DNA from: Bryoerythrophyllum caledonicum
Lineage: Eukaryota; Streptophyta; Bryopsida; Pottiales; Pottiaceae
Length of the DNA stretch: 64,000 nucleotides
Direction of reading: 5' to 3'
Assembly (NCBI GenBank): GCA_963971425.1
Contig: OZ020525.1
Location: forward strand, 11,600,187-11,664,186
The translations under genes and the position numbers were made by a program. The notes beneath the pieces were generated by a model. It had not been told where the DNA came from. It saw nothing but the letters and a program-made list of their open reading frames with translations, and searched no databases. Shown one piece after another: positions 32,029-47,759 of the stretch. How positions within the stretch are numbered: position 1 is the stretch's first letter; each line of letters starts with the position of its first letter.

Positions 32029-32690
32029 CGCTCCAAATCTTCCTCACCTCGCCTATCTCCCTCCGTCAACCAAATTACATTTAGAAAAGCACTGAACTAT
32101 CAGAAACCTAAGACACAGCCAAAAGATAAAGCTCGGAGCAGCGGTTTTAAACAAACGCCGGCCCGGCGGACGATTCTTTCCCCGAGACGACGATGGAGAA
32201 TAGAAAGCACACAAGAATGTGACGACAACCTCATCAGGTGACAATCACGAACAACGGAGAATCTGCACCAGGAGTACATTTTCTGTTGTACATGTACGAC
32301 TAAGGTAGATAATTTTGGTGGAACAGCCGACGAAGACGACGAGGAGGATAAAGAGACCTTAAACCGGTATTCTCCTAGGAGAGTGTACAATTGAGGTTGA
32401 GGAATTTATTTATTTGTAGATGGAGGTGAGCGGTTTTTGGATCTCCGTGGAATGGGAGGTCTCGGTCAGCGAAAGTACATGGCGATGACGATAGTCGGAG
32501 ATCCCGGGGCGATCCGAATAGGACCGAGTGCGCTGGTACTGTATCCGGGTATTCTGGGCCGTTTTATCCGGTTCCCTGCCTGCCCGGGTATCTCGTCGCT
32601 CTAATATGGTAAAGAATTCATGGGGCCATGTACATGCCCAGGGCGAACTGACCCCCTCGTTGGGCGAGGCCGACGGACGGAGGGTCAGTC
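32029..32690 (-). promoter_or_regulatory. HDS upstream region between gene and giant element
   Basis: About 660 bp separate the HDS start from the end of the 15-kb element, and this must contain the HDS promoter and 5' UTR. Just before the element, 32647-32689 forms an inverted pair (ACTGACCC ... GGGTCAGT). I see no obvious TATA box. Confidence 0.4.
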
Positions 32691-32870
32691 GTATGGAATG
32701 CCAAAAAGGCTAGGAATTGACATTTCTTGGTACCCTGGGGAAGATTCCCGTTACCCCCGGTAACATTCTCTATACCCTGGGAAAGATTCTCCACCCAGGC
32801 TATATTAGCAGGATAGTTTCTTCGACCGGGTATCAACCTGTATTCATACGAGACTGGTTGTATTTTGTAT
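32691..32870 (+). repeat. Left terminal inverted repeat of the 15-kb element
   Basis: Starts GTATGGAATGCC and includes about three 21-bp motif units (ACCCTGGGGAAGATTCCC and similar). It matches 47440-47713 inverted, including the inner block ending near TGTATTCATACG. Confidence 0.8.
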
Positions 32871-32939
32871 GAATTTTTTTTTCCTGCCCGATGATCCATC
32901 TTGACCGCCGATCAAGATTAATCGTGTCCATCCGATTTT

Positions 32940-33480
32940 GATCTCGAGCTTGAGGAATTGGAGGAGTCGTCGTCGTGCGATTCCGTTTTTGTTTTGTTTC
33001 AAACGTCCTCAAGAAATCGGCGAAGGGGCGAAGATTGCAGGAAATGGTGAAAGCTCATGCACATCATTGAGGTAAGTTTCTATTGGCTTCGTTTCCAGTC
33101 CAGACGTTGCAGCAACGAAGTCCTAATTTAACAATCAGATTCATCACAAATCAAGAGAGTCTGGAAAACATTTCTCAAAAACTCTTTGACTTTGCTTCCA
33201 TGGTCTCAAACCCTAAGCTGTTCATTTCCCGCTTGCAGGTGTGATGACTTGAAACCTTTAGTTAGGGTTTGATCTCGACCTTGGGAAATTGGGAGAGTTG
33301 TCCTCGTGCAATTCCGTTTCCGTTTTGTTTCACACATCCTCAAGAAATCGGCGAAGCGGCGAAAATCTCTGGAAATGCTGAAAGCTCATGCACTTCATTG
33401 AGGTAAGTTTCTATGGCTTGTACGAGTGCAACTTTGGCTTCTTTTCCAGTCCAGACGTTGCATCAACGAAGTCCTTATTT
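32940..33480 (+). repeat. Tandem duplication (about 330 bp) upstream of the integrase gene
   Basis: The segment starting at TTTGATCTCGAGCTTG (about 32937) recurs about 330 bp on, with shared blocks CAAGAAATCGGCGAAG, CTCATGCAC.TCATTGAGG and CCAGTCCAGACGTTGCA. Each copy carries a potential splice donor (GAGGTAAGTTTC), so it probably duplicates a promoter or first non-coding exon. Confidence 0.7.
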
Positions 33481-33581
33481 TACAATCAAATTCTTGTACT
33501 TTTGCTTCAGGTTCCCTGTTATTTGTAAATCTTATATTACATTTTGCTTACCTGCTCAGGAACTACACACTGTTTGCAACT

Positions 33582-35436
33582 ATGGAAGGCACGGAGTTGC
33601 CAATAGATTTGGTGAACTATGTTCAGAGTATGTTGAGTGAAAGAGTTCCACTGAAAAGCATTGCTACAGCATTGAATATCTCAGATCCAAGGAGGTTGAA
33701 GAGGCTCATGAGTAAGGTCATAGGTAGAGATTTCAGGGTGTACGATCAGTTCACAATCGAAGAGCTCTCCAGCAGAATCCAAGCTCTCCTTCCTGTTCGG
33801 GAGCATGGAGCCAATTGGGGTATTCTCCATGTCAAAGCTGCCTTGGGACGATTACATATGAGACCTCCAAGAAGGAACATTGCAAGAGCATTGCAAGTAT
33901 TGTCAGGTATGTTTGTTTCTTTACTACTATTGTTGGTTAAATTTGTAGGTGAATTCTTGCCCATGGTATAGGGAATATTAACCAGGGTATAGGGAATATT
34001 ATCCAGGGTATAGGAAATATTATCCAGGGTATAGGGAATATTACCCAGGGTATAGAGAATGTAATCCAGGGTATAGGGAATATTACCCAGGGTATAGAAA
34101 ATTTACAGGTGAATTCTACAGAAGCTCATTATGAAAGGAGGCGTTTGGGGCTGCCATTAACTCGGCGACAATACAATGTCACAATGCCTATGGCATTGTG
34201 GCATATTGATTGTGAGTTCAATTTACATTATCAAGTTTATGTTTAAATCCAAAATGCACACTATGTGATGATCAGCCAATTGTCTTTCATGTTATGCCTT
34301 TTGTTATTTTAAATTTTAAAAAAAAGTTGTGCAGCATACGACAAACTTGCCATGTACGTCTTGCGCATTCACGGATGTATTGATGGTGCATCACACTACG
34401 TACTCTACGCAAGAGATGCTGCAGATAAGACTCAAGAAACCATTTTTGAGCCTTTCAGAGCAGCTGTAGAGCGGTTTGGTACCCCTCTACGAGTACGGTC
34501 AGATTTTGCTGCAGAACATGTACTCATTCGTGAATACATGGAAAGGGCACGGGTGGAAACAAGGAACCCATTTCTAGTTGCTTCTTCAGTGCACAATCAG
34601 GTAAGTATTATGTTTTTTTTTAAGCATCTCATGTCTGTAATATTTTGTGTAATAACTTGATCTCTATTGCGCACTGTGTGTGCAGAGAATTGAACATTGG
34701 TGGCGACATCTATGGGAGAAAGTAATCTCGTACTACAAGAATGCTATCAAAGAAATGGTTACTGCAGGTCTCTTCATTCCAGATGAGCCTTACCAGAGGG
34801 CGTCATTCGTAGCTGTATTTCTTCCAATACTACAAGAAGTGGTTGATGAGTATATTGGCGTATGGAACTCCCATCTAGTTTGCCAGATCAATGAAAATGG
34901 CAGATATCGCCCTTCCCATGTACCAGCACGTTATTTCCGTGAATTTGAGAGATTGCATAGGTGAGTTTCGTTCACTTAAATGAGTTTTTGCTTTCTCAAA
35001 CAGTTCAATCTATAACAACAGAAGTAAGATATTATTGATTTTATATTGGCTGTCTCTTTTCAAATTGGAGTCCCATGTCCCAGACATGCATATCGCTGAT
35101 GACCTTGAGCACATTGGCACTCAAGACTTAGGACCCCCTGGTCCACAGACTTGGAGGTCTCGTCGTCGAGCTCCGGAGCCAACAATATACCAAGTCCCAG
35201 AATTGCCAAGTGGGCTATCTAGCTTACGAGATTTGGCATATGCCAGAGGGAGGTTAGGGAAAGACAATTTGCAATGTTTTCATTTGCATTTTTTCTTGTC
35301 GTATTACTGTCATTTAGCTCATGAGAGTCACTTGCATGTGAACCAGGTAGATATTGTCGACCACTCCAGTGAGAGCAGAGAAGCCTATGCTCTCCTAGTA
35401 GATTTAGCCTCTAGGCATGAATCAAGTGACATCTAG
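33582..35436 (+). CDS. Integrase-core (DDE, rve-like) transposase of the 15-kb element
   Basis: Exons with matching phase: 33582-33906, 34122-34211, 34335-34600, 34686-34960; a last part lies within about 35024-35436 but its acceptor is unsure. The N-terminal region (residues 1-108) is helical with a helix-turn-helix-like SIATALNISDPRRLKRLMSK. The catalytic core follows: Asp1 in ALWHIDS (34208-34210), RIHGCIDGASHYVLY, Asp2 in VRSDFAAEH (34502-34504), then SVHNQRIEHWWR with the Glu (34692-34694). This is the integrase-core family with the SVHNQRIE signature that is repetitive in fish, cnidarian and fungal genomes. The usual GGEN after Asp2 is AAEH here. The triad is intact and no stop breaks exons 1-4. 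Intron 1 is mostly a 21-bp repeat array. Confidence 0.82.
33968..34110 (+). repeat. 21-bp motif array A (integrase intron 1)
   Basis: About seven tandem units with core GGTATAGGGAATATTA.CC. It lies entirely within the first intron of the integrase gene. The core GGGAATATTACCC is nearly palindromic. Confidence 0.85.
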
Positions 35437-35439
35437 CTC

Positions 35440-35526
35440 CACCTTGGAAATCTTTCCCAGGATCCTGGGAATCTTTTCCGGCCTCCTAGGAATCTTACCT
35501 GGCCTCCTGGGAATCTTTCCCGGGTC
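35440..35526 (+). repeat. 21-bp motif array B (3' end of integrase gene)
   Basis: About four units with core CCTGGGAATCTTTCCCGG. It starts within a few bases of the integrase stop codon, so it lies in the 3' UTR or terminator region. Confidence 0.8.
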
Positions 35527-35529
35527 TTA

Positions 35530-38500
35530 AGAAGTTCAAAGGATAGCACAATATCCTAGGGGTTGGTTTGTGCCTCAAGCCATTGTGGAGAAGTTCTTCC
35601 TCTAGTTGCCGCCTTATCTCAGTCACTCCATGCGTGTGTGTATATGGCCTTTTCAAAGACCTTTTCAAAGGCGAAAACTGTGGTCTTCGCAGCTCTAAAC
35701 AGCATTTATGCCAGGCATGAGTTGTTGGAAGAGCAAGCAAATAAAGACGCCCTGGCGCAGGTAAATATTTCTTTGTGGATGGCAATCTCTTACAGTTACC
35801 TCTCATTTTGCTTGATTTTGTTGCACCTTGTACAAAATTGATGTTATGAGTTAAAGCAATTTGACCACTTGATGAATTAATCAGTGTTCCCCGCACGGCA
35901 ACCAAAAATAGGACATCTTTTGAAAATCGCAGTAAAACCCGGTGCAACACTTTGAGAAGACGTCGAATGATTGACTTGACGTTGTCTTGCAACAGCTCTC
36001 CGTCGTGGAGCCTTAATTATAACTAACTCCAACATGTGCACTCAATCATCAGTGTCGGTCAAGGATTCCTGCTGCTGTGTTGTTGGCCTCTAAGTCCTCA
36101 TTCCAATTGCTGGTTCCAAGTGTAGAAGCTGATGCTGGCGATCGATCGATCGATCACCTTCCTGTTTGAATGGGGCTATGTGGAAGGGCTCCATATCTGT
36201 TGATGAGAGAGGCCATGACTGTTCTGTAAGAGATGGTCAATGTGCTCATGAGCATCTCCACAGCTGCAATCCATCACTGAGATTTGCATTTCGTTTGAGA
36301 GGTCCTTTCAGATTTCAATTTAACTGCCTCGTTATTCACACAAATATCAGTCTAAATTAGATGACAACCAATCAAAAGCTGTTGCATGAACAGTGAAAGT
36401 CAAAGTAATCTTTGACATAATCATCTCCATTATATAATCTAAACGTGCCCTCCTACCACTTATGTAATGACTATTTTTGTAAAAGGGCCACGGATTTTTT
36501 TAATTAAAATTTTGGTGCTTCATTCTTGTTTGGAGTGCAATTGTGAGGATGCTTTGAAATATAGGAGTTTTGGCTTCTTTTGTCTATGTTGAGCCCTAAA
36601 CAATAGAGAATTATAAAGGTTTGTGGTTAGGTAATTGTACTGGGGAGTTTGATTGTGAGTAGCAAATAAAAATAAGTTTTACTATTTAAAGATCATGAAA
36701 GGCATTATAGAAGTTGATAGTACCTTAAGGTTACTATAATCTTATTATATGGAGAACATTATTCATCACTAATGCCTAATCAAACTTGTGACCAAACCCT
36801 TTGTTATAGCCACCTAACTTCTAACTTTTAAATTGTGTTTATTAATGTGGAAAAATGAAAGTTTTTTTTTTGGGGTGCCCAAGAACTTTGACTCTTCTTG
36901 GAGTGAAATTTTTGCACTAAAGGAAGTATTATTTTGGTGAAACCTCAAAGGAGGTTGTTTTAGTTGTACACAAAGTTTCAAAGCTATTGGAGGATCTTAG
37001 TAAACTGTCCAAATTGCCCATTCTTGCAAAAAAACCACTTCCACTAGCAAAGCTTTTTCATCAAATGTCCGATTTATAAAACATTACACTCCTACAAAGC
37101 TCTTACATTTCCCCTTCTTTAGTAAAAATCTCAAAACCATTTGTTGAAAATTGACATCATAAGAACCTGCTCAAATGTTCGGAAAACCCACCGCTAGACA
37201 ATTGCTCCTTTAAGGATTAAAAGTAAATTCTATTTTTTTTAACTATAAGACCTTAAAAAGACTAATAGGCAATCAATTCAAATGAAATTTAAAGTTTTTA
37301 ACAGAGAAATTGAAAGATTATAGTGTTTGAAGTAATTTTTTATAGAGCACCATATTACTTTTTAGCATACAACAACCATGGCTAATGTTTGGGTCCACGG
37401 TTATAATGCTAGTGAAGGTGGTATCATCTTTGGCTTTAATAAAGATCAATTTTAATCCTCCAAAAAATTTGAAAGGTAAAGATGGACAAGATGTTAAACA
37501 TTAAGAACTTGACGCCTTGAAATTTTGTGTGTTTAAATGTGAAAAGATTGAGAATATCAAGAGCAATTACAAGTTGTGCTAAAAAGTTGTCTTGCAATTA
37601 TTGCAAAGATTTTTTGTTGACTAATACTAATTTCTAATGAACGGTGTATGAGATGCTATACCATGATTGTCATATTGCATGCTCTTTGCATATGAGCATT
37701 TGATATGAACAAATGTAAATCATACAGATTTTTAAGTCTCACATGACACTAATTTTACACTAAAGTTAAATTTAATATCACCTTCAAGAAGGCAGCTACA
37801 TGCAAAAAATTACACATGACAAATGGATCTTGAGGAGGTCATTGGTGATTTTTTTGAAAAACTATGTGAGTTAAAAAATAAGGTCCATTTAATTAAAAGG
37901 GCAAAATTTTATATTACTTGTAGGGATGCTACAAGGTCCATAAAATGCTACGTATTCTATGATATATTAATTAGGCTATATAAAAACATCATATAGTAGG
38001 ATTTTTTAAAAATAAGTTAGCCTTCATAAAAAGAAGATGTGAATTTTTTTCATAATACAATTTAAGGTGAAACATCCAAAAATGTCCTTGGATACTTTAG
38101 GCCACCTTTTATTGGAATACATGCATGAAAATTCAATAATAGAAACACATATATAGTAGGAGATTTTAAGGTTTAGGGCTCAAGAGATTTATTGCTAATA
38201 TTTGAATTAAATCCCATTTCTTAAAGAGCTTCTATTTTGTTATTTAAAAATATTGATAGACTTCATTTGGTACAAAAATTTAAATAAATATAGAACTTGT
38301 TTGTTAAAAAAATTAAAAAATCCAAACCTAGCTTATTATAAATTGTAACTTTTTCCTTAAATATAGACTATTATATTTATATTTGGATTTGTTTAAATTA
38401 ATTCTATGTTCTTTATACTTTTAATTTTAATTTAATTTTATGATATTTATTTCTTTAGATTCTAATTTTTAGCAATCATTTGTTTTATGACCCTAAATAC

Positions 38501-38590
38501 AAAACCAAATGAATCATGAATCCACACTATATTCAGTGAATAAGATACAAAGTATAAGATTTTCATATATCCTTCATATTTCATTTTGAA
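35530..38590. other. AT-rich interior of the 15-kb element, no gene seen
   Basis: About 3 kb with no convincing coding frame. A GATC microsatellite run (36137-36155) is the only local feature. It separates the integrase and HECT gene blocks. Confidence 0.45.
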
Positions 38591-38629
38591 TTGATATTAC
38601 CCAATTTCAACATCACTTTCTTTTGCTAC

Positions 38630-38868
38630 GTCCAAGGAATCTATCCCGAGCTCCAAGGAATCTATCCCGAGCTCCAAAGAATCTATCCCGGGGTCCAAAG
38701 AATCTATCCCGAGGTCCAAAGAATCTATCTCGAGGTCCAAAGAATCTTTCCCTTTGTCCAAAGAATCTTTCCCTCAGTGCAAGGAATCTATCCCTTAGTG
38801 CAAGGAATCTATCCCTTAGTGCAAGGAATCTATCATTGAGTCCAACGAATCTTTCTTGAGCACCTTTC
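38630..38868 (+). repeat. 21-bp motif array C
   Basis: About eleven tandem 21-bp units with core TCCAAGGAATCTATCCC, the longest and most regular of the arrays. It is open in several frames on both strands only because the unit length is a multiple of three, so I do not call a protein. Confidence 0.88.
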
Positions 38869-39602
38869 ATGAAATATCAATTCTGGAATTACAACCATGT
38901 GACTTGGCCACGTTTTTCAAACACATAATAAAAAGTGATGTTCTGAAAAATGTAAATCTTTTCACGTACAATGGAAAGTGATGGCACTATCACACGAAAT
39001 GACAACATGGGCATACCACCTTTTCGCCTTTGTCTGTTTAATCTCAAATTGCTCGTCCAACTTTGCTTGAACTACTCTCTTGAAATGTCTCGGTTGTGAA
39101 TTTCATCTTCTGTTACTTCTTGTTTCATATTGTGTTTCTTGTGCGGCATCTTCACCATGACACCATGAGGATTAAGAACACATAGGGTTCAAGAAGAGGT
39201 AAGCATTATTTTTCTTGCAGATTTTTCTCGCTAAAGTTTTCAAACATGGGCGAGACGTTTTCTTGCAGCATAGACAACTAATACTGGTACATCGTGCACA
39301 GGAATCATTCAATACATATGCGTTTCCCTTGGAGAGCAACTTCTCTGGTTCCAAATTTGATCTGAACCCTGCCAAATCTGTTCACGAGACCACACACGTG
39401 AGCGCTTGTTCCAGGTACTGAATTCGTACATTGTTTTCAGTATAACATTTTTATTGATGGGGGGATGTTAAGTACTTACATGTTTTCACTTGCACATTTT
39501 TATTGCTCATCTTCACAGCAAAATTCTTGGAAACTGGCATGTTCCCTGAATCTTTTTCTCTTTTCTCCTGGTGTGCAGTTGACGGTGAGGATTGCGTCAC
39601 TG

Positions 39603-42600
39603 ATGGTCGCTGCTGGTGGTGGACATCAACTGAACAGAATGGACGAAGATGAGTTTCAACCGGACTCAACAGGCACACAACAAGAACGCATCCAACCAAG
39701 CATGAGAAATACTGTCTTTCCCATGCCAACAGTAAATAGGGCTCAAGACTTTTCATACAACCCACAATTCGGGGCACCAAGACAAGGAGGGGCGGCAGGA
39801 CGAGGAGGGGCGGCAGGACGAGGAGGGGCAGCAGGACGGGGAGGTGCAGCAGGACGAGGAGGTGTAGGAGGACGAGGAGGGGCAGGAGGACGAGGGGCAG
39901 GAGGACGAGGAGCACCAAGTGAAGATGTGACCAGTGAGCGGTGCTCACTCACAAGGACTGTCTACTTCCTACCAGAAAATACCTTGTGGATTTTGGACAA
40001 GGTAGGGGAGCTGATTCCATTTTTGGAGTCTTGGCAGGCAGACTCTCCTAGTGTGCTTGTAACCCTGCCAAGTACAACAAAGTGGGGAGGCTTAGTCCAT
40101 CCATTCTCAGCAGATTCAGTGGAACATGGTATTGCAAGGGCATTTGCAAGAGCCCTTTCATCAACTACATCAAACTACACAGGACTTTTCTACAAGAGGA
40201 GCAAGAAACGGAAAAAATGTGGAAATGATTCTGGATTTTTCTTGGAGCCCTACATCAGACCTAAGGGAGCGCCCTTTGGATCACTGCCAACACAAACGAA
40301 TATCATCTATTGTCCAGACCCTACTCTACTTCCACAAGCTGGAGTGGATTCTTACTATAGGAGCGTAGCAGCAGGACCTCCTCCGCCCACCACCATACCA
40401 TTGATTCTATCAGTGTATGCTCCAGCACCTGCTGAACAATCCAGGTATTACATTTGTTACCTTATTCCAATGTTCTATTCTGATTCATTTTACATATAGA
40501 CCTATTCCTACTAAAGTTGATACATTATTGTCTACCTTAAAGTCTTGGGTCCTGAAAATCTTTTGCAATGGTCTTGGAATCATTCCCAGGGTCCTTGGAA
40601 TCGTTTCCAAGGTACTAGGAATCTTTCCCGAAGGCTTGAGAATCTATTCCAAGTCCTCTGAATCATTTCAAAGGCAATGGTTTCTCTTGAACAACAGCTA
40701 AATTCATCAAAAACATTGCATTTAAAATGAAGTATTGTTAGGAATAAAAAAAGCTTGACAAATTTAAAGACATGCTAATTTTACAAAAATATTTGCTTAC
40801 AGCTCCAGTTCATCTGCTCCTCCAATTGCATGCAATTCTGGACGCCTAGCTCTCCCAGCTCCTACTCAAAGTGGAGTTCCACCAACTGCTCAAGAGACAA
40901 GGTAAGAGTTCCACCAACTACTTCCAATAAGTTTTTTTTTTATTTGTATGTCTTTCACTATCATAAGACAAATTCATTTACAAAACCTACTAAATGTAAT
41001 CATGTTATGCTTCTTACAGTGTTGCTGGAATTGCAAGTTCATCTACGAGCTGGAGTGCTCATGTACCCACACCTCCCACACCTGGACGCACATCAACATT
41101 TATTGACATTAGCGGACAAGTGTATATCAACAGCGAGAGTCATTTAGACTACCTATCAGAAATATGGGTAGAAGCGGAGAAAGCATACTACACAGCTCTG
41201 GAGAGAAGAAATTGTAATGCTCACCAAGTCGCTAACAGTGATCCACATAGCCGATTGTTCTGGCGAGCCATCCAAGAATTGGAGACAACAGTGTTACAGG
41301 GAGCTGAAAAGCAGCAACCAGAGATCGAGTCCATCACAAGACAACTCATGAAGTGCAGAAACAATCGCATGGGACTAACATGTCCAGAGAGTGATTTGGT
41401 GAAATTCATAGAAGAAGATACTGTGCGGGAGATAGCAATGTATATGGCTGCAGACATCAGGAGGGAATTTGAGTCTAGTGCTAGACCGTTCTGGAGAGAA
41501 TGGGAAGAATTCGGATGGTTAGTTCACTTACTTCCAGGTGATGCACTTTGCAAGGAGCACTCCCTCTTGATTTTGCAAACCTATGGTGAACAAGGCACAG
41601 AGCACATTAACATGTTAGATGAAGTATATAACCTTCCTTCTAACAAGAGAATCAGCAAGAGTTTGTTGAGGTTAATGTGCGAATCAAGAAATGGAAGAAT
41701 GGACGAAAACCTTGGGGAGGAAGATCTTATTCAGAAAAGGGAAGCAGTGGAGGCAGCACTATTGGCATTCCAGAGATACTACATTGAGAAGAAAGTGTTC
41801 TTCCCTTTCAAATTCTTCTGCGACTCTTCATCCTTGGTACCTGAAGAAATCATTAAGGTAAATTGTAGAATCACTTAGAAAATATAATGTCAACAACAGT
41901 TGACAAAAATGATATACTAAAAACAATGTTTGTACTTGAATTCACGTGCATCAAGGAAAGGAATACAAGGCTTTCTGTGAGAAATGGAACGATGTAGTTC
42001 TGGAGAACAAAGCCTGCTACAACGTGAAGATCAAATTCGTCCACAAGAGCGGGATAAAAGAGAAGCAAACAATTGATGTGGATGGATTAAGAAACGCTTG
42101 GCTTACCTCATGCTGGAAGCAGTTTGTCTCCTATCAGTTTGTAAGTCCCTACCATCTGAACCTACAATTCAACAGTGAAACATGATTTCAGAGAATATTT
42201 CTTAGGGTCCAGGGAATATTTCTTAGGGTTTAGGGAATATTTCCCAGGGTACAAGGAATCATCCCTGAGGTCCAAGGAATCATTCCGGAGGTCCCAGTCA
42301 TTTGTCTAAAATCTATTTCAAATTAGAAGATTTGAACAAATCAAGTACTGAATACAATTTGTGCTATGGACAGAATTACAGCGAGATTTTCGAGTATCCA
42401 AACAATCGGGAAGGAACGATTCTACACCCATTAAAAGATGGAGATATCATCGCACCTAAGAGACAACTTGATGTGGTATGTATTACTTATGTTCAATTTG
42501 AATATTTCAGTATTCAAACTTCATTGCTGAATATATTTACTGAATTTCAAATCAATGCAGGCACGCATGTTGGGACACCTGATCTGGAGTATCGCATTCA

Positions 42601-43391
42601 ATAACTTGGAGGTTAATCGCCCATTCACATTTTCTACGCTGCTCATGATGTGTGACATGGTTCCTAAGGATTTATCAAGTATTGACCAACAGTTACGATG
42701 GTCTTTGGAGAGGGACTTTCGATTATGCTTCCCCACAAAATGGAATATCCTGAAACAACTAAGGAAGTCGTATGAAGAGGCATCAGCACTAGTCACTCAC
42801 CTTTGTGACGAGGAGATAGACGACAGCCTAGGTTGGTCATTTCAGAACTTCGTGATCGATGAAGGCAAGTGGAGCTCGGAGGTTGAAGGGAAGATCGGTG
42901 CAATCATCTGGACACATTTGTTCAAAGACAGGGCGTTAGTGGGTGCAGCATTGAGGGAAGGATTCTTCATGAGCGTGGAGACAGCTCCAATTTCGCCTGT
43001 GGAGAAAGCTAATTTTCTAGCAGACTTGGCTCTACTAAACCCTGAGTGTTTGAAGATCATTTTTTTAGGGGCCTGCTCTGTGGATGCTACAGAGTTCATG
43101 AAGGCTGTTCACTTCAGGGCGTCTATTGCACATCAACAACAAGTATGGTTTGAAACAACCGTTCATAGCATGACTAACATGGAGAGGACAAGATTGGCTG
43201 TTTTTATTACAGGGAAAGAGTACTTCAGCAATGCAAACATCACAGTTGAGTTATTGGCTAGAGACGACGAACCTTGTGTACAAGCGAGCACGTGCTTCAC
43301 CACCCTTCTTCTGCCGCTATACAAATCCCTGCAAAGTATGTTGCGGAAAATCAACATCTCAACTATGGACACTAGTTATGGACGCCCATAG
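39603..43391 (+). CDS. RGG-rich protein with C-terminal HECT ubiquitin-ligase-like domain
   Basis: Exons 39603-40444, 40803-40901, 41020-41857, 41961-42140, one around 42300-42476, and 42561-43391 (stop). Phases agree except at the 42.2-42.3 kb junction, which spans a repeat array. Residues about 60-106 are an RGG/Ala-Gly tract (repeated GGAAGR), typical of nucleic-acid binding. A middle helical region (41.1-41.86 kb) is unassigned. The end fits a HECT domain: VKIKFVHKSG...DVDGLRNAWL, ARMLGHLIWSIAFNNLEVNRPF, and finally QASTCFTTLLLPLYKS with the catalytic-type Cys at 43293-43295. HECT proteins (G2E3-like) take ubiquitin from E2 as a thioester. Whether this one is active is unknown. Beside a DDE integrase inside TIRs, it is probably element-encoded. 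Start at 39603 is inferred; there may be an upstream exon. Confidence 0.7.
39780..39915 (+). repeat. In-frame 18-bp coding repeat (RGG tract)
   Basis: About seven units of GGACGAGGAGGGGCGGCA-type sequence encode the Gly-Arg-Ala tract of the HECT gene. The region is GC-rich against an AT-rich background. Confidence 0.85.
40548..40680 (+). repeat. 21-bp motif array D (HECT gene intron 1)
   Basis: About six diverged units (CTTGGAATCATTCCCAGGGT and relatives) inside the intron 40445-40802. Confidence 0.8.
42186..42300 (+). repeat. 21-bp motif array E (HECT gene intron)
   Basis: About five units with core AGGGAATATTTC..AGGGT, shifting to AAGGAATCATTCC. It lies in the intron following exon 42140. 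Confidence 0.8.
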
Positions 43392-43779
43392 AATTTGATA
43401 TTTTCATACCACATAGAGTTAGATGAGTTGTTGGATAGCTCTCAAACTACAACTCTATGATTTTTCTCTAAATGCTATGTTAAAAGATGTCATGATGTGA
43501 ACAATAAATTTTGGTGTAGAACAGCAGAGTTCAAAGGATACCGACCGGGTTGCGTCTTTCTCAACCCAAGGACTGAAGACCAGAAAAATTCGAATACGAT
43601 GTCGCCCGTGAGCTTTACCGTGAAAGTTTTTAACTGCAACATGATAATTGCTATCAATCTCGACTGTATGGAAGTTTTCATTGTATAGAATCAGCTCAAA
43701 GGAGACTAATATTCATCTTGGTTGATCTCATGTGCAAACTCTCACTTCACTCCCAAGGACAACTAAAACTACCTTGAAT

Positions 43780-44085
43780 TGAGTTTAAAGACCACCGAGC
43801 TCTTCTATGATCAAACAACTATAATAAAAGAAAACTACCAAGCTCTTCCATACCCAATCCAACAACTCTAATACAAAAACAATCAGCTCTTCTACCAATC
43901 CAATAACTATATAGAGTAAAAAACAGTACCACAATAAATCAGAAGAGGAGGAACCTTGAAACTCTAGAAACACAGGCTCCACAAGCTCTCCAATCAATCC
44001 AATATCCATATGGAGCTAAAAAAACGGTACCACAATAGACCAAAAGAGGAGGTATCTTCAAGCTCCAGAAACACAGATTTTCCAC
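43780..44085. repeat. Two-to-three copy tandem repeat (about 100 bp)
   Basis: Blocks CCAATCCAA(T/C), AACAGTACCACAATA and AGAAGAGGAGGAACCTTGAA recur with ~10-15% differences. It is non-coding, between the HECT gene and the captured host fragments. Confidence 0.6.
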
Positions 44086-44112
44086 AACAAATGAGGTGAT
44101 GAGAAGAACCAA

Positions 44113-44463
44113 CCTGGATAAGTAACAGTAGTGCCATTTAGGGCCTGTGAGACACTAGTGTACCGAGCACTCCAGGTGGAGTGATTCTTGGCCTCAACGA
44201 GCTGTGTCTGGGCGAAGAACGTGTAGAAGCTGCGAATGGATTAGAGAGGATTAATTGTGGTGAGGGGCTCCAGCAGCTCGAAGGTGCCCTTGGTGTTGGA
44301 CAGGACCTCGAATAGCATGGTTAGGCGCAGGAATGGATTTGGGTCAGTCTGGCGCGGCAGCTTGTACACGATGATCTTCACTTTTGAGTCAAAGGTGGTC
44401 GTCGTGGGAAAGATGGTGGCGTCTAATGGCGCGAACTGACCGTCTGTGAAGATCACTATCACC
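44113..44463 (-). pseudogene. Captured exon of a VWA-domain protein
   Basis: An exon-like block with a GCACAG acceptor at its 5' side and a TATCCAG/GT donor at its 3' side. It encodes VIVIFTDGQFAP (von Willebrand A-type TDG motif), VKIIVYKL, GTFELLEPL, then SFYTFFAQTQ, resembling VWA proteins followed by a cache-like segment. A stop interrupts it after NPL. I am not sure of the parent gene. Confidence 0.5.
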
Positions 44464-44961
44464 TGTGCAAGAAAATTAGAACTGTTCTTTGTATAGCGAG
44501 GCAAAGATACCATGATTATTGTACTCTTTTTTCAATTTTAATTAGTAATGTCTACACTTAATAGCTAAAAATATCTATAGTCAGCTCAAAGACAAAAAAG
44601 TATTTTGTGAAGTCGCCCAAAGTTTTAATGAACTTCTCTTTACTGAACTAATGTTTTAGATTCGGATTTAATTTTTGCTGTTATAATGTTTATGATCCTT
44701 AACCCTACTCACTTCTCACTCTTAATAGCCATTAAAGCATTGGAAGAGCTTGGTGGTGAATCCTTATTGGTGGTCTCTAAACCAAGGCAAAGCAGTTACA
44801 GTGAGAGTGAAGAAAGAGTTTGCACAAAGTCAATCATGAATACTAGTCGCTTTTCTCTAATAGAGAGCTATTCACGGGTGGATTTCACTGTGAGAAAAAG
44901 TGGGCATATCTTACACAATTTTGGGTGACTTTAGAAGGAACTGTAGTGTGTTATGTTACTC

Positions 44962-45960
44962 ACCGTCAAGGCGGATCCGAGCGTGCATCAATTTGTGCGC
45001 TAGTGGATCCTGTTAATAATCTGCACGCTCTGCACGCCCAAATGACACATAAAATGCTGGTCAGATTTTAATGTTGAAGTTTGAGAACGTGGTGTAAACT
45101 AATTTACGCTTGCCAAGATGCATGTTAAGAAAGGGCTACCAAGGAAAACACTGCCAATAAATGTATTTTTCTGGGAGCAAAGCATTGTTGACATACAAGC
45201 ATGATCTCAAAACAAAGTACATACCTGGGTAATCCTAAAAGAACAAGAATTGTTGTCACCTTGCAATGGCGTGGCATTTTCCGCATTTCTGCCATAGGGC
45301 AGCTGCTATGAATACCTGCGTTGTATATTTGTTCCAAAAATCATCCAGATTAATAAAAGGAGTAGGTAATGCAGGCCCTTCGCTTAAATTAACTAGTTCA
45401 AGAAAAGGGTAAATGACAGTTGCAAAAGCATGATAGAAAACATCACATTAGAAGAATTCCTACAACATTTCATCGAAATGGAAAAAATTATTAAAAAGTA
45501 GAAGTCCGGTTTTCTTACAGGAAGGATATGCTGTTCTGACAAAGAAAGATCTCGCATTTTTGGAGCGTGAGTGTGTCCCTGCATAGTGTTCGCTAGATCA
45601 AAGTCCAGGCTGCATAAAAGGAACCAGAATTGAGAAACGGATATTAAGGTCCAAACTATAAATCCTGATTTGAACAAAAGAGAGTTCACATCAAAGTGGA
45701 AGAACTTCTTACATCTTTCTCAACTTCATGGGCGTTGTTGAGGGCCTCTTGCTCCACCAAAAGCATGGGTAGTTCTTGTTCAGTAGGCATTCCCAGGGTC
45801 ACTCTGTAGTATTTCAGTATGTCAAGGTATAGAGGCTGGCAATCCTTGGTCGCCATCACTGCATCCTTCAAGCTCCTGTAGCACTTGCCACACACCTTCC
45901 TTCCATCCTTCAAGCTCTTGTACCGTTCATCAACTGGTTGCAAAATCATCAAAAAAAAAC
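44962..45960 (-). pseudogene. DA1: Captured DA1-type LIM-peptidase fragment
   Basis: Four exon-like pieces in the order of the DA1 gene: (1) about 45712-45937, QPVDERYKSLKDGRKVC then CQPLYLDILKYY and ELPMLLVEQEALN; (2) about 45520-45585, GHTHAPKMRDLSLSEQHILPV; (3) about 45228-45290, RHCKVTTILVLLGLPR; (4) about 44962-45033, LLTGS then LAHKLMHARIRLDG. DA1 is a ubiquitin-activated metallopeptidase that limits organ growth. Its zinc site HEMMH appears here as HKLMH, and a frameshift precedes it, so this copy cannot be an active peptidase. The N-terminal UIM region and the rest of the peptidase are absent. Confidence 0.85.
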
Positions 45961-45967
45961 TCCCCAT

Positions 45968-46690
45968 CTAAACCCTAAACCTGCACCACCTTCTGGCCCT
46001 TGCAGGCTTGCACTGCCCTTACACTTACCTTCTCGCTGATGGTCTCGCCTGAGCCGCAGCAGTCAGAGCAAACATGTTGAATCTCTTGAATCATGTTGAG
46101 GCCCAGCTGCCAGATGGACACCTTCACGCCTGAACCCTGACACCCTGCGCACCAACTCGATGCACCCGTCTTCAATCTTTTCCTGGACAATTAATTACAT
46201 TGGAACCTTAGGAGCTGGAAAGTTTTCCACAGTGCAATCCACCTCACGTTTCACTTAAGGATTGGTAATGACCACATGAACTTCTTCTAATGCATTTGGA
46301 ATGCACGTTCTTATCCCATGCATGCAAGACTGCGGAAACACGCTCGGCACCCAGTTCCTAATCAATCACGCACCATTGCACATCTCGCACACCCCCCATT
46401 ACAACAACCAAAAACACAGACACACACATGAACGTCCAAATCCCCGAAAAACCACGCGGATCCGCGATGCCGCACCTGCGAAAGGGTTGCCGCCACCCTC
46501 GAAGAAAGACTCGAAAATGTCGAATGGATTGTGCGAGGCACCGCCTTGAGAGCGTCCTCCCCATACTGATCGTAAATCTCCCTCTTCTCGGGATCACTCA
46601 GCACTTCGTACTCCTGGGCGAGCTCCTTGAACTACGCACACCAAACAATTCACGCCCCATCGATCAACATAACATACCTACACCGCCTTC
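45968..46690 (-). pseudogene. Captured DnaJ (type I, ANJ1-like) fragment
   Basis: The minus strand encodes the end of a J domain (FKELAQEYEVLSDPEKREIY then DQYGEDALK). After a small frameshift comes the Gly/Phe region (GGASHNPFDIFESFFEGG), and then part of the DnaJ cysteine-rich zinc domain (CAGCQGSGVKVSIWQLG, HVCSDCCGSGETISEK, ACKGQKVVQ). The HPD helix and the C-terminal substrate domain are missing, and some zinc Cys are lost. It is followed at once by the DA1 fragment on the same strand, so the two host pieces are fused end to end. Confidence 0.88.
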
Positions 46691-46957
46691 TCCATGACGA
46701 CAAGGGGAAATCAGCAGATCCGGCGACGACCACCCCCCAGTGAACATAAAAACGACGTCTTTCAGAGCAAGAGAGACTTCACCCGCCAATCTCGATTAAA
46801 AGCGGAGCACAAATCCGATAGGGCCACAGGAGGCACCAATTCAACACATCCGCGACGCAGAAGCGGGACGCATGAGCAAAGCTACATAAACATGACGAAG
46901 CTACATAAACCATGACGACACTACATAAACCAATACAAACCACAACACATCAACTGA

Positions 46958-47183
46958 CCTTTCAGATCTCGCTGCACCGATCCAACTTAACCATGCATTG
47001 AAGCAGAACTCGAGCAGAGAGAGAGCACGCTAGGGTTAAGACCGACAACAACGCAAACGCATCTAACAGACCTTTCAAATCTCGCTCCACCAATCGAACT
47101 TCACCGTGCATTAAAGCAAAACTTGCGCAGAGAGAGACATAGCACGCTAGGGTTAAGACCGACAACAACGAAAACGCATCTAA
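46958..47183. repeat. 113-bp tandem duplication
   Basis: Two direct copies beginning CCTTTCA(G/A)ATCTCGCT and ending AACGCATCTAACA, about 85-90% identical. It lies upstream of the DnaJ fragment and may be captured promoter DNA. Confidence 0.75.
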
Positions 47184-47439
47184 CACATAAAGACGGAGGT
47201 GGAGACGCAACTGATGTCCACTGCCGCAGCCTGCAACGTAGAGAGTGAAACTTAGAGAGTGAGGAGTGCGGCAAGAGAGCGAAGAGTGTGGCGTTGGAAT
47301 GCGGTGAGAGGATGCGGCCCAAAGCTCAGGGTTTGGGGTGTTGTCCTCACCTGAAACAGATGGGCGGAGACGATGAACTCACACGAACGGTATAGATGGA
47401 TCGTCGGGCAGTGTAGATGAATCGCCGGGTAGACGGGAT

Positions 47440-47713
47440 GTATTTTGGTAGAAATCTAATGTTGTACCCATACGAATACAAGCTGATACCCTGTTGAAAT
47501 ATACTAACCAGCTAATATCCGCTTGTGGGATAGAATCTTCTCAGTGTTCATCGAATCTTTCCCGGGGTACATAGCATCTTCCCAAGGTACATTGAATCTT
47601 TCCTGTGGTATAAAGCATCTTTCCCAAGGTATAGAGAATGTTACCGGGGGTAACGGGAATCTTCCCCAGGGTACCAAGAAATGTCAATTCCTAGCCTTTT
47701 TGGCATTCCATAC
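47440..47713 (-). repeat. Right terminal inverted repeat of the 15-kb element, with 21-bp array F
   Basis: The reverse complement of the left TIR. The outer ~95 bp is almost identical to 32691-32785. Inside it are about seven 21-bp units (GGTACATTGAATCTTTCC and similar) against about three on the left. Confidence 0.8.
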
Positions 47714-47759
47714 CCGCCGCCATGCCCGTACCCGGCCTACGACCCGCCTTATGCCCCAG

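Follow-up and report, generated by a model that had tools for sequence, protein, structure and literature searches.

According to passages of PMC12730594 and PMC10045372, DNA transposons of the IS3EU/GingerRoot type are marked by TA..TA termini (TAYGG..CCRTA in fungi), 6-bp target duplications, terminal inverted repeats (TIRs) longer than 30 bp and an integrase-type transposase without an HHCC finger, and a clubmoss is the source of GingerRoot (PMC10045372). Passages of the former source also report that fungal IS3EU elements contain genes for alpha-kinase and TET/JBP proteins, and that the DNA-modifying enzymes of fungal TET/JBP transposons and the anti-silencing protein of plant Vandal elements are proposed to act against host silencing (PMC12730594). 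In Ginger1, as far as the relevant passages go, most integrase-type transposases are fused to OTU/Ulp1 proteases, removers which the authors link to ubiquitin and repair, and targets are CCGG-specific (PMC2836005). Here we describe an element at positions 32692-47712 of a 64,000-nt stretch of DNA (the window; assembly GCA_963971425.1, contig OZ020525.1, positions 11,600,187 to 11,664,186, forward strand) from Bryoerythrophyllum caledonicum, which carries a gene for an integrase-type DDE transposase and a separate HECT gene between long TIRs.

With IS3EU/GingerRoot this element shares the finger-less integrase-type transposase, the TIR length, the 6-bp duplications (in its family) and the ends, but its accessory gene encodes a HECT protein and not an alpha-kinase or a TET/JBP enzyme. 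It resembles Ginger1 in tying an integrase-type transposase to the ubiquitin/SUMO system and differs from it in that a separate gene encodes a predicted adder in place of fused removers, and in that the 6-bp duplications of its family are of varied sequence. With the TET/JBP transposons and Vandal it has in common an accessory gene for which a role against host silencing is proposed, and in some of its relatives a dioxygenase-like gene lies close to the integrase; the accessory protein here is, in contrast, a predicted HECT ligase. We favor, with a probability of about 0.62, the interpretation that the element is a probably autonomous cut-and-paste transposon of the IS3EU/GingerRoot type whose co-inherited HECT ligase would target, in trans, a host factor for silencing or repair.

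Element ends, copies and target sites

Two inverted arms of 100 nt (32691-32790 and 47614-47713), 98% complementary, lie 14.8 kb apart. The near-identical inverted ends noticed in a first-pass annotation, made from the letters of the window, are therefore real, but the element proper, as defined by comparison of copies, runs from TATGG at 32692 to CCATA at 47712 and is one base shorter on each side, since other copies have other bases at these positions.

32692..32790, + strand: left TIR, starting with TATGGAATGCC (from copy comparison)
47614..47712, - strand: right TIR, finishing with GGCATTCCATA (from copy comparison)

The arms were searched against the 437-Mb genome (894 contigs; a label such as C7b denotes a copy on contig C7). 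In this search 43 matches were listed and the best 40 of 48 candidates were scored, so that copy counts are lower bounds. Arm matches of 97-100% identity were found at at least 20 sites forming exactly 10 pairs with a spacing of 13-32 kb, and this pairing of 20 near-identical matches into 10 elements excludes a chance origin of the inverted arms; the remaining matches (74-83%) represent either diverged ends or similar internal sequences. The young family consists of at least 10 near-identical copies of 13.0 to 31.9 kb each, which align with the window element at ~95-99% in long blocks, the longer copies containing insertions. TATGG..CCATA ends are present in all 11 copies compared; the left end of the diverged copy C14d reads TGTGG, and for the diverged copy C15d the CCATA end was not found within the stretch fetched.

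Exact 6-bp target duplications flank 8 of the 10 young copies (C10, C3, C11a, C7a, C7b, C1, C8, C11b), that of copy C2 agrees in 5 of 6 letters, and the diverged relative C6d has an exact 6-bp duplication too. The window copy (CAGTCG at 32686-32691 and CCCGCC at 47713-47718) is the sole young copy that shows none. Sequence on either side of it matches both flanks of copy C1 and one continuous stretch of contig C12, and it therefore lies inside a dispersed repeat. The first-pass annotation had mentioned neither the missing duplication nor a variable region at 43.5-46.5 kb with host-like gene pieces, which is described below. Insertion flanks are rich in GC, with 46-75% over 250 bp compared with 42% for the whole window. 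In the case of copy C7b, the flanks minus one duplication join into a 198-aa open frame with sperm-tail SHIPPO repeats (Pfam SHIPPO-rpt, 3.9e-14), and a frame that closes once the element is taken out is what a clean insertion into an exon predicts. When the flanks of C11a were joined, they matched two diverged continuous sites (74% and 72%), and the joined flanks of the window copy matched C12:676659-676800 (78% over query 45-180); these empty-site-like matches are paralogous repeats and lend little support for empty sites. The window thus holds a complete DNA transposon of a recently active family. There is good support for transposition of the whole unit, with the integrase as the likely enzyme.

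A dispersed motif, TCGTTGGGC with GGGTCAGT, picked after the flanks had been viewed, occurs within ~90 bp of 3 of 11 insertions (window flank 32392-32691, C11a and C1); in the window flank it is palindromic, and a further 48 kb of the window contained it 0 times. It may reflect a target preference or nesting within another repeat.

Integrase and HECT genes

33582..34964, + strand: integrase-type DDE transposase gene (exons 33582-33906, 34122-34211, 34335-34600, 34686-34964; 319 aa, 3' end uncertain)
39603..43391, + strand: HECT gene (exons 39603-40444, 40803-40901, 41020-41857, 41961-42140, 42374-42475, 42561-43391; 963 aa)

Both gene models represent splicing predicted from genomic DNA, with GT/AG borders at the introns, and a gap of ~4.6 kb separates them. 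The spliced integrase (319 aa) matches Pfam rva_4 with an E value of 9e-40 and contains the triad D138, D195 and E230, with 34 residues between D195 and E230, and the 963-aa HECT protein matches Pfam HECT with 7e-14 over residues 843-955, so that an intron-containing integrase gene with an intact D-D-E triad and a multi-exon HECT gene with its Cys, both called at first reading, were recovered. As there is no Cys among its first 130 residues, the integrase is without an HHCC finger. Similarity to the NCBIfam model of the IS481 transposase (2.8e-9, 36.9 bits) is far under that model's cut-off of 224, and a PDB search with the integrase profile gave four weak matches, all unrelated. The integrase model was ended at TGA 34962-34964, a further candidate exon being out of frame; an intron at HNQ^RIE appears to be common to the window integrase and its far relative C7e.

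The catalytic Cys of the HECT protein is residue 932 in the motif STCF, 31 residues before the end, and the N-terminal part is RGG-rich with five RGG motifs. STCF and the following Tyr are invariant in six of six aligned HECT exons, window included; all six match Pfam HECT, and the other five HECTs are 27-77% identical to that of the window. STCF was also present at 10 of 10 HECT loci of a further set inspected, and the Cys is retained in C6d (NTCF) and in the decayed C14d (SVCW). When window and C6d were compared, dN, dS and dN/dS were 0.069, 0.441 and 0.155 for the integrase (295 codons) and 0.233, 1.220 (near saturation) and 0.191 for HECT (877 codons). These values, with the retained Cys, show past constraint on both predicted proteins, catalytic Cys included, and the HECT protein would be an active ubiquitin ligase.

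Pairing and shared descent of the two genes

All 10 young copies have integrase and HECT exons enclosed by paired TIRs, and the view of the first-pass annotation that both genes belong to one mobile unit, which was to fall if TIR copies never bracketed the two, is borne out. In the whole genome, 63 rva_4 rows correspond to 38 integrase loci and 45 HECT rows to 36 HECT loci. A related HECT locus is situated within 29 kb of 24 of the 38 integrase loci, compared with 0.25 expected within 40 kb under uniform placement. Ten of these 24 belong to the young family, and one (C7:17214577) adjoins the HECT of a young copy and not its own, which leaves 13. Host-type HECT loci, a class of eight that results from our own sorting, were near an integrase in 0 of 8 cases. 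Over nine loci, namely the window (for the young family) and eight others fetched, a subset of the 24, the identity matrices of integrase and HECT are correlated with a Mantel r of 0.988, which 0 of 20000 permutations reached. The pairing of HECT with the integrase is usual, not universal. From constraint, linkage, parallel descent and the invariant STCF we infer that HECT has been inherited together with the integrase since the clade split with its active site kept, and we read it as a second gene that a plant IS3EU-like lineage has probably had for a long time. The co-divergence of the two genes suggests that the element may exploit the protein-tagging system of the cell.

In the window family both genes have the same orientation, and gene pairs on opposite strands were found at C14:19.34-19.36, C6:8.13-8.14, C7:29.72-29.74 and C1:57.39-57.40 Mb. 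Two further arrangements were observed: at C12:658083-673196 two inverted integrase matches lie ~14 kb apart without a window-type HECT nearby, and at C8:7786902-7801215 two inverted HECT matches lie ~14 kb apart without an integrase match nearby.

Relationship to described transposons

All four IS3EU/GingerRoot marks were found in this family, that is the ends, the 6-bp duplication, the 100-nt TIR and the finger-less DDE integrase, and the element is therefore placed with IS3EU/GingerRoot. This assignment is probable and was set by published marks. Membership of Ginger1 was considered and rejected, as the duplications are of 6 bp and varied instead of CCGG-specific 4-bp ones and the two spliced proteins gave no OTU/Ulp1 match. 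Polinton/Maverick elements are characterized by genes for DNA polymerase B, a packaging ATPase and capsid proteins, none of which were seen in 10 scanned frames (of 37 listed) or in the two spliced proteins. Repeated genes for HECT-type ligases exist elsewhere, if G2E3 is, as we presume, a HECT protein. Unclassified candidate repeats matching G2E3 were described in hybrid fish, an animal host, and the passage concerned links no transposase or TIR to them (PMC5638112). The main text of PMC12730594 contains 0 mentions of HECT or ubiquitin, and neither PMC4255032 nor PMC10067951 has a relevant passage on HECT or IS3EU. Among the best-ranked matches of a full-text literature search, outside the scope of which lay Repbase and the original GingerRoot description, no HECT-bearing element of such a kind and no plant transposon with its own ubiquitin ligase was found. 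This silence of the literature would be expected of an undescribed superfamily, as had been considered at first reading; however, the termini, the 6-bp duplication, the TIR length, the lack of HHCC and the IS481-type similarity all fit IS3EU/GingerRoot, and we regard a new superfamily as improbable.

Proposed role of the HECT protein

According to the interpretation favored here, the integrase-type transposase would recognise the long TIRs, possibly via 21-bp units common to TIRs and internal arrays, and would insert the element at 6-bp staggered, GC-rich targets. The HECT protein with its RGG-rich N-terminus has descended together with the integrase from a time before the genome's two clades split, and most likely it would act in trans for the benefit of the element by ubiquitinating a host factor of silencing or repair. 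The nearest precedents for such a host-directed role, judging from the passages concerned, are the OTU/Ulp1 proteases of Ginger1 (PMC2836005) and the anti-silencing genes of Vandal and of fungal elements (PMC12730594).

Several observations weigh against this interpretation. The N-lobe of HECT with the E2 site was not recognised above noise by Pfam or PDB profiles, which detect the C-lobe only, and residues 547-732 align to WWP2 at noise level only. C6d has Asn in place of the first Asp of the integrase, and its HECT reading frame is disrupted. Among the young copies dN/dS is not low (0.36-1.45 for the integrase and 0.45-1.01 for HECT, with few changes), so that they may be drifting, and in the comparison with the decayed C14d it is 0.21 and 0.32, respectively; both genes are free of stops in only 4 of 10 young copies, window included, and in C10 HECT exon 1 is split by ~2.4 kb of other sequence (matched in part). 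A genome search with the TIR, suggested in the first-pass annotation as a check on whether the two genes always occur together, gives this result for the ten young copies, but 14 of 38 integrase loci lack a window-type HECT within 40 kb. Conversely, 13 of 36 HECT loci have no integrase within 40 kb, and C15d has an integrase with no HECT found in the 19.4 kb fetched. For C7e, searches of 17 kb fetched for inverted repeats and TA..TA ends revealed no convincing TIRs or duplication.

The main rival explanation is that HECT forms part of the transposition machinery, binding 21-bp units or the transposase or setting the transposase level, and has no part in anti-defence. Tandem arrays of 21-bp units are scattered over the element:

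33961..34097, no strand: array of 6.5 units in integrase intron 1, unit resembling the TIR
35445..35523, no strand: array between the genes
38630..38860, no strand: array of ~10-11 units between the genes
40557..40674, no strand: array in HECT intron 1
42189..42294, no strand: arrays in HECT intron 4
47530..47652, no strand: array overlapping the right TIR

Arrays of period 21 are also present in the TIRs, and some units are TIR-like. A degenerate motif that we picked from the arrays themselves has 10 occurrences in the element and none in the remaining 49 kb of the window, compared with a mean of 0.1 in a control of 50 mononucleotide shuffles; C6d has arrays clearly of the 21-bp kind only in its TIRs. 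Such units might be protein binding sites. A machinery role would agree with the divergence of HECT in step with the transposase and with the RGG-rich N-terminus, and DNA transposons with two proteins exist, for instance Nuwa with its Myb/SANT partner in a passage of PMC12730594. The 14 integrase loci without HECT nearby imply, in contrast, that the transposase may not need HECT, and pure DNA binding would not require the catalytic Cys, which is retained. We consider this explanation rather unlikely, yet the strongest competitor of a host-directed HECT ligase.

A different origin, passive capture of a host gene, has to be weighed because the element holds host-like pieces at 43.5-46.6 kb:

43546..46479, no strand: variable region, differing among copies and containing host-like gene pieces
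45686..45967, - strand: DA1-like fragment within the variable region (Pfam DA1-like 2.1e-4, 21.2 bits, cut-off 25)
46362..46631, - strand: DnaJ-like fragment at the right border of the variable region (Pfam DnaJ 5.6e-5, 23.6 bits, cut-off 27.8)

In copy C7b the variable region is unmatched and ~1.9 kb of other sequence is found instead, in copy C1 it is largely deleted (43933-46409), and C8 has a 17-kb insertion near its left edge. As expected of passengers, the DA1-like and DnaJ-like pieces lie in or at a region that can be lost or replaced. HECT behaves differently from them: 2 of 10 copies lack all or most of this region and HECT exons are present in 10 of 10, HECT was under past constraint and co-diverges with the integrase, and the window HECT exon retrieved 0 of the 8 host-type HECT loci at E 1e-3 (best candidates scored). 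That HECT was passively captured is, in our judgement, very improbable, more so than any other explanation weighed here.

Dioxygenase-like gene in relatives

In C7e, the strand opposite to the integrase carries a 359-aa open frame ~3 kb upstream of it:

C7:30197000-30198076, - strand: dioxygenase-like open frame of 359 aa

By eye, this frame shows an H-x-D...H pattern, which we take to be that of 2-oxoglutarate dioxygenases; the protein had no Pfam match at 0.1 and no PDB match at 1. The gene family is large (102 rows, 78 loci in the genome), and a member lies within 10 kb of 7 of the 38 integrase loci, none of them of the window family, compared with 0.14 expected; three of the seven are without a window-type HECT within 40 kb. 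The likeness to a dioxygenase is worth testing because fungal IS3EU elements, in the passages at hand, carry TET/JBP dioxygenases (PMC12730594). One may tentatively imagine an IS3EU/GingerRoot lineage in which a co-evolving HECT gene and, in part of one clade, a dioxygenase-like third gene constitute a modular kit that attaches ubiquitin to host proteins of silencing or repair, in contrast to the Ginger1 removers, although we hold this broader scheme to be doubtful. Should HECT counter silencing, selfish DNA would have a new route to escape control, and the role of HECT can be tested with the young copies and their paired ends, target duplications and matched gene pair.

Host and wider distribution

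Relatives outside this genome were not confirmed among viral contigs (131 integrase and 36 HECT pattern matches), and phages gave none for the integrase core. Contig C1 of the genome sequence opens with a long TTTAGGG array, presumably the plant-type telomere repeat. Together with the DA1-like fragment inside the element, which is below the Pfam cut-off, this array fits the plant host that the first reading had proposed. The predicted SHIPPO gene hit by copy C7b would suit a plant with swimming sperm.

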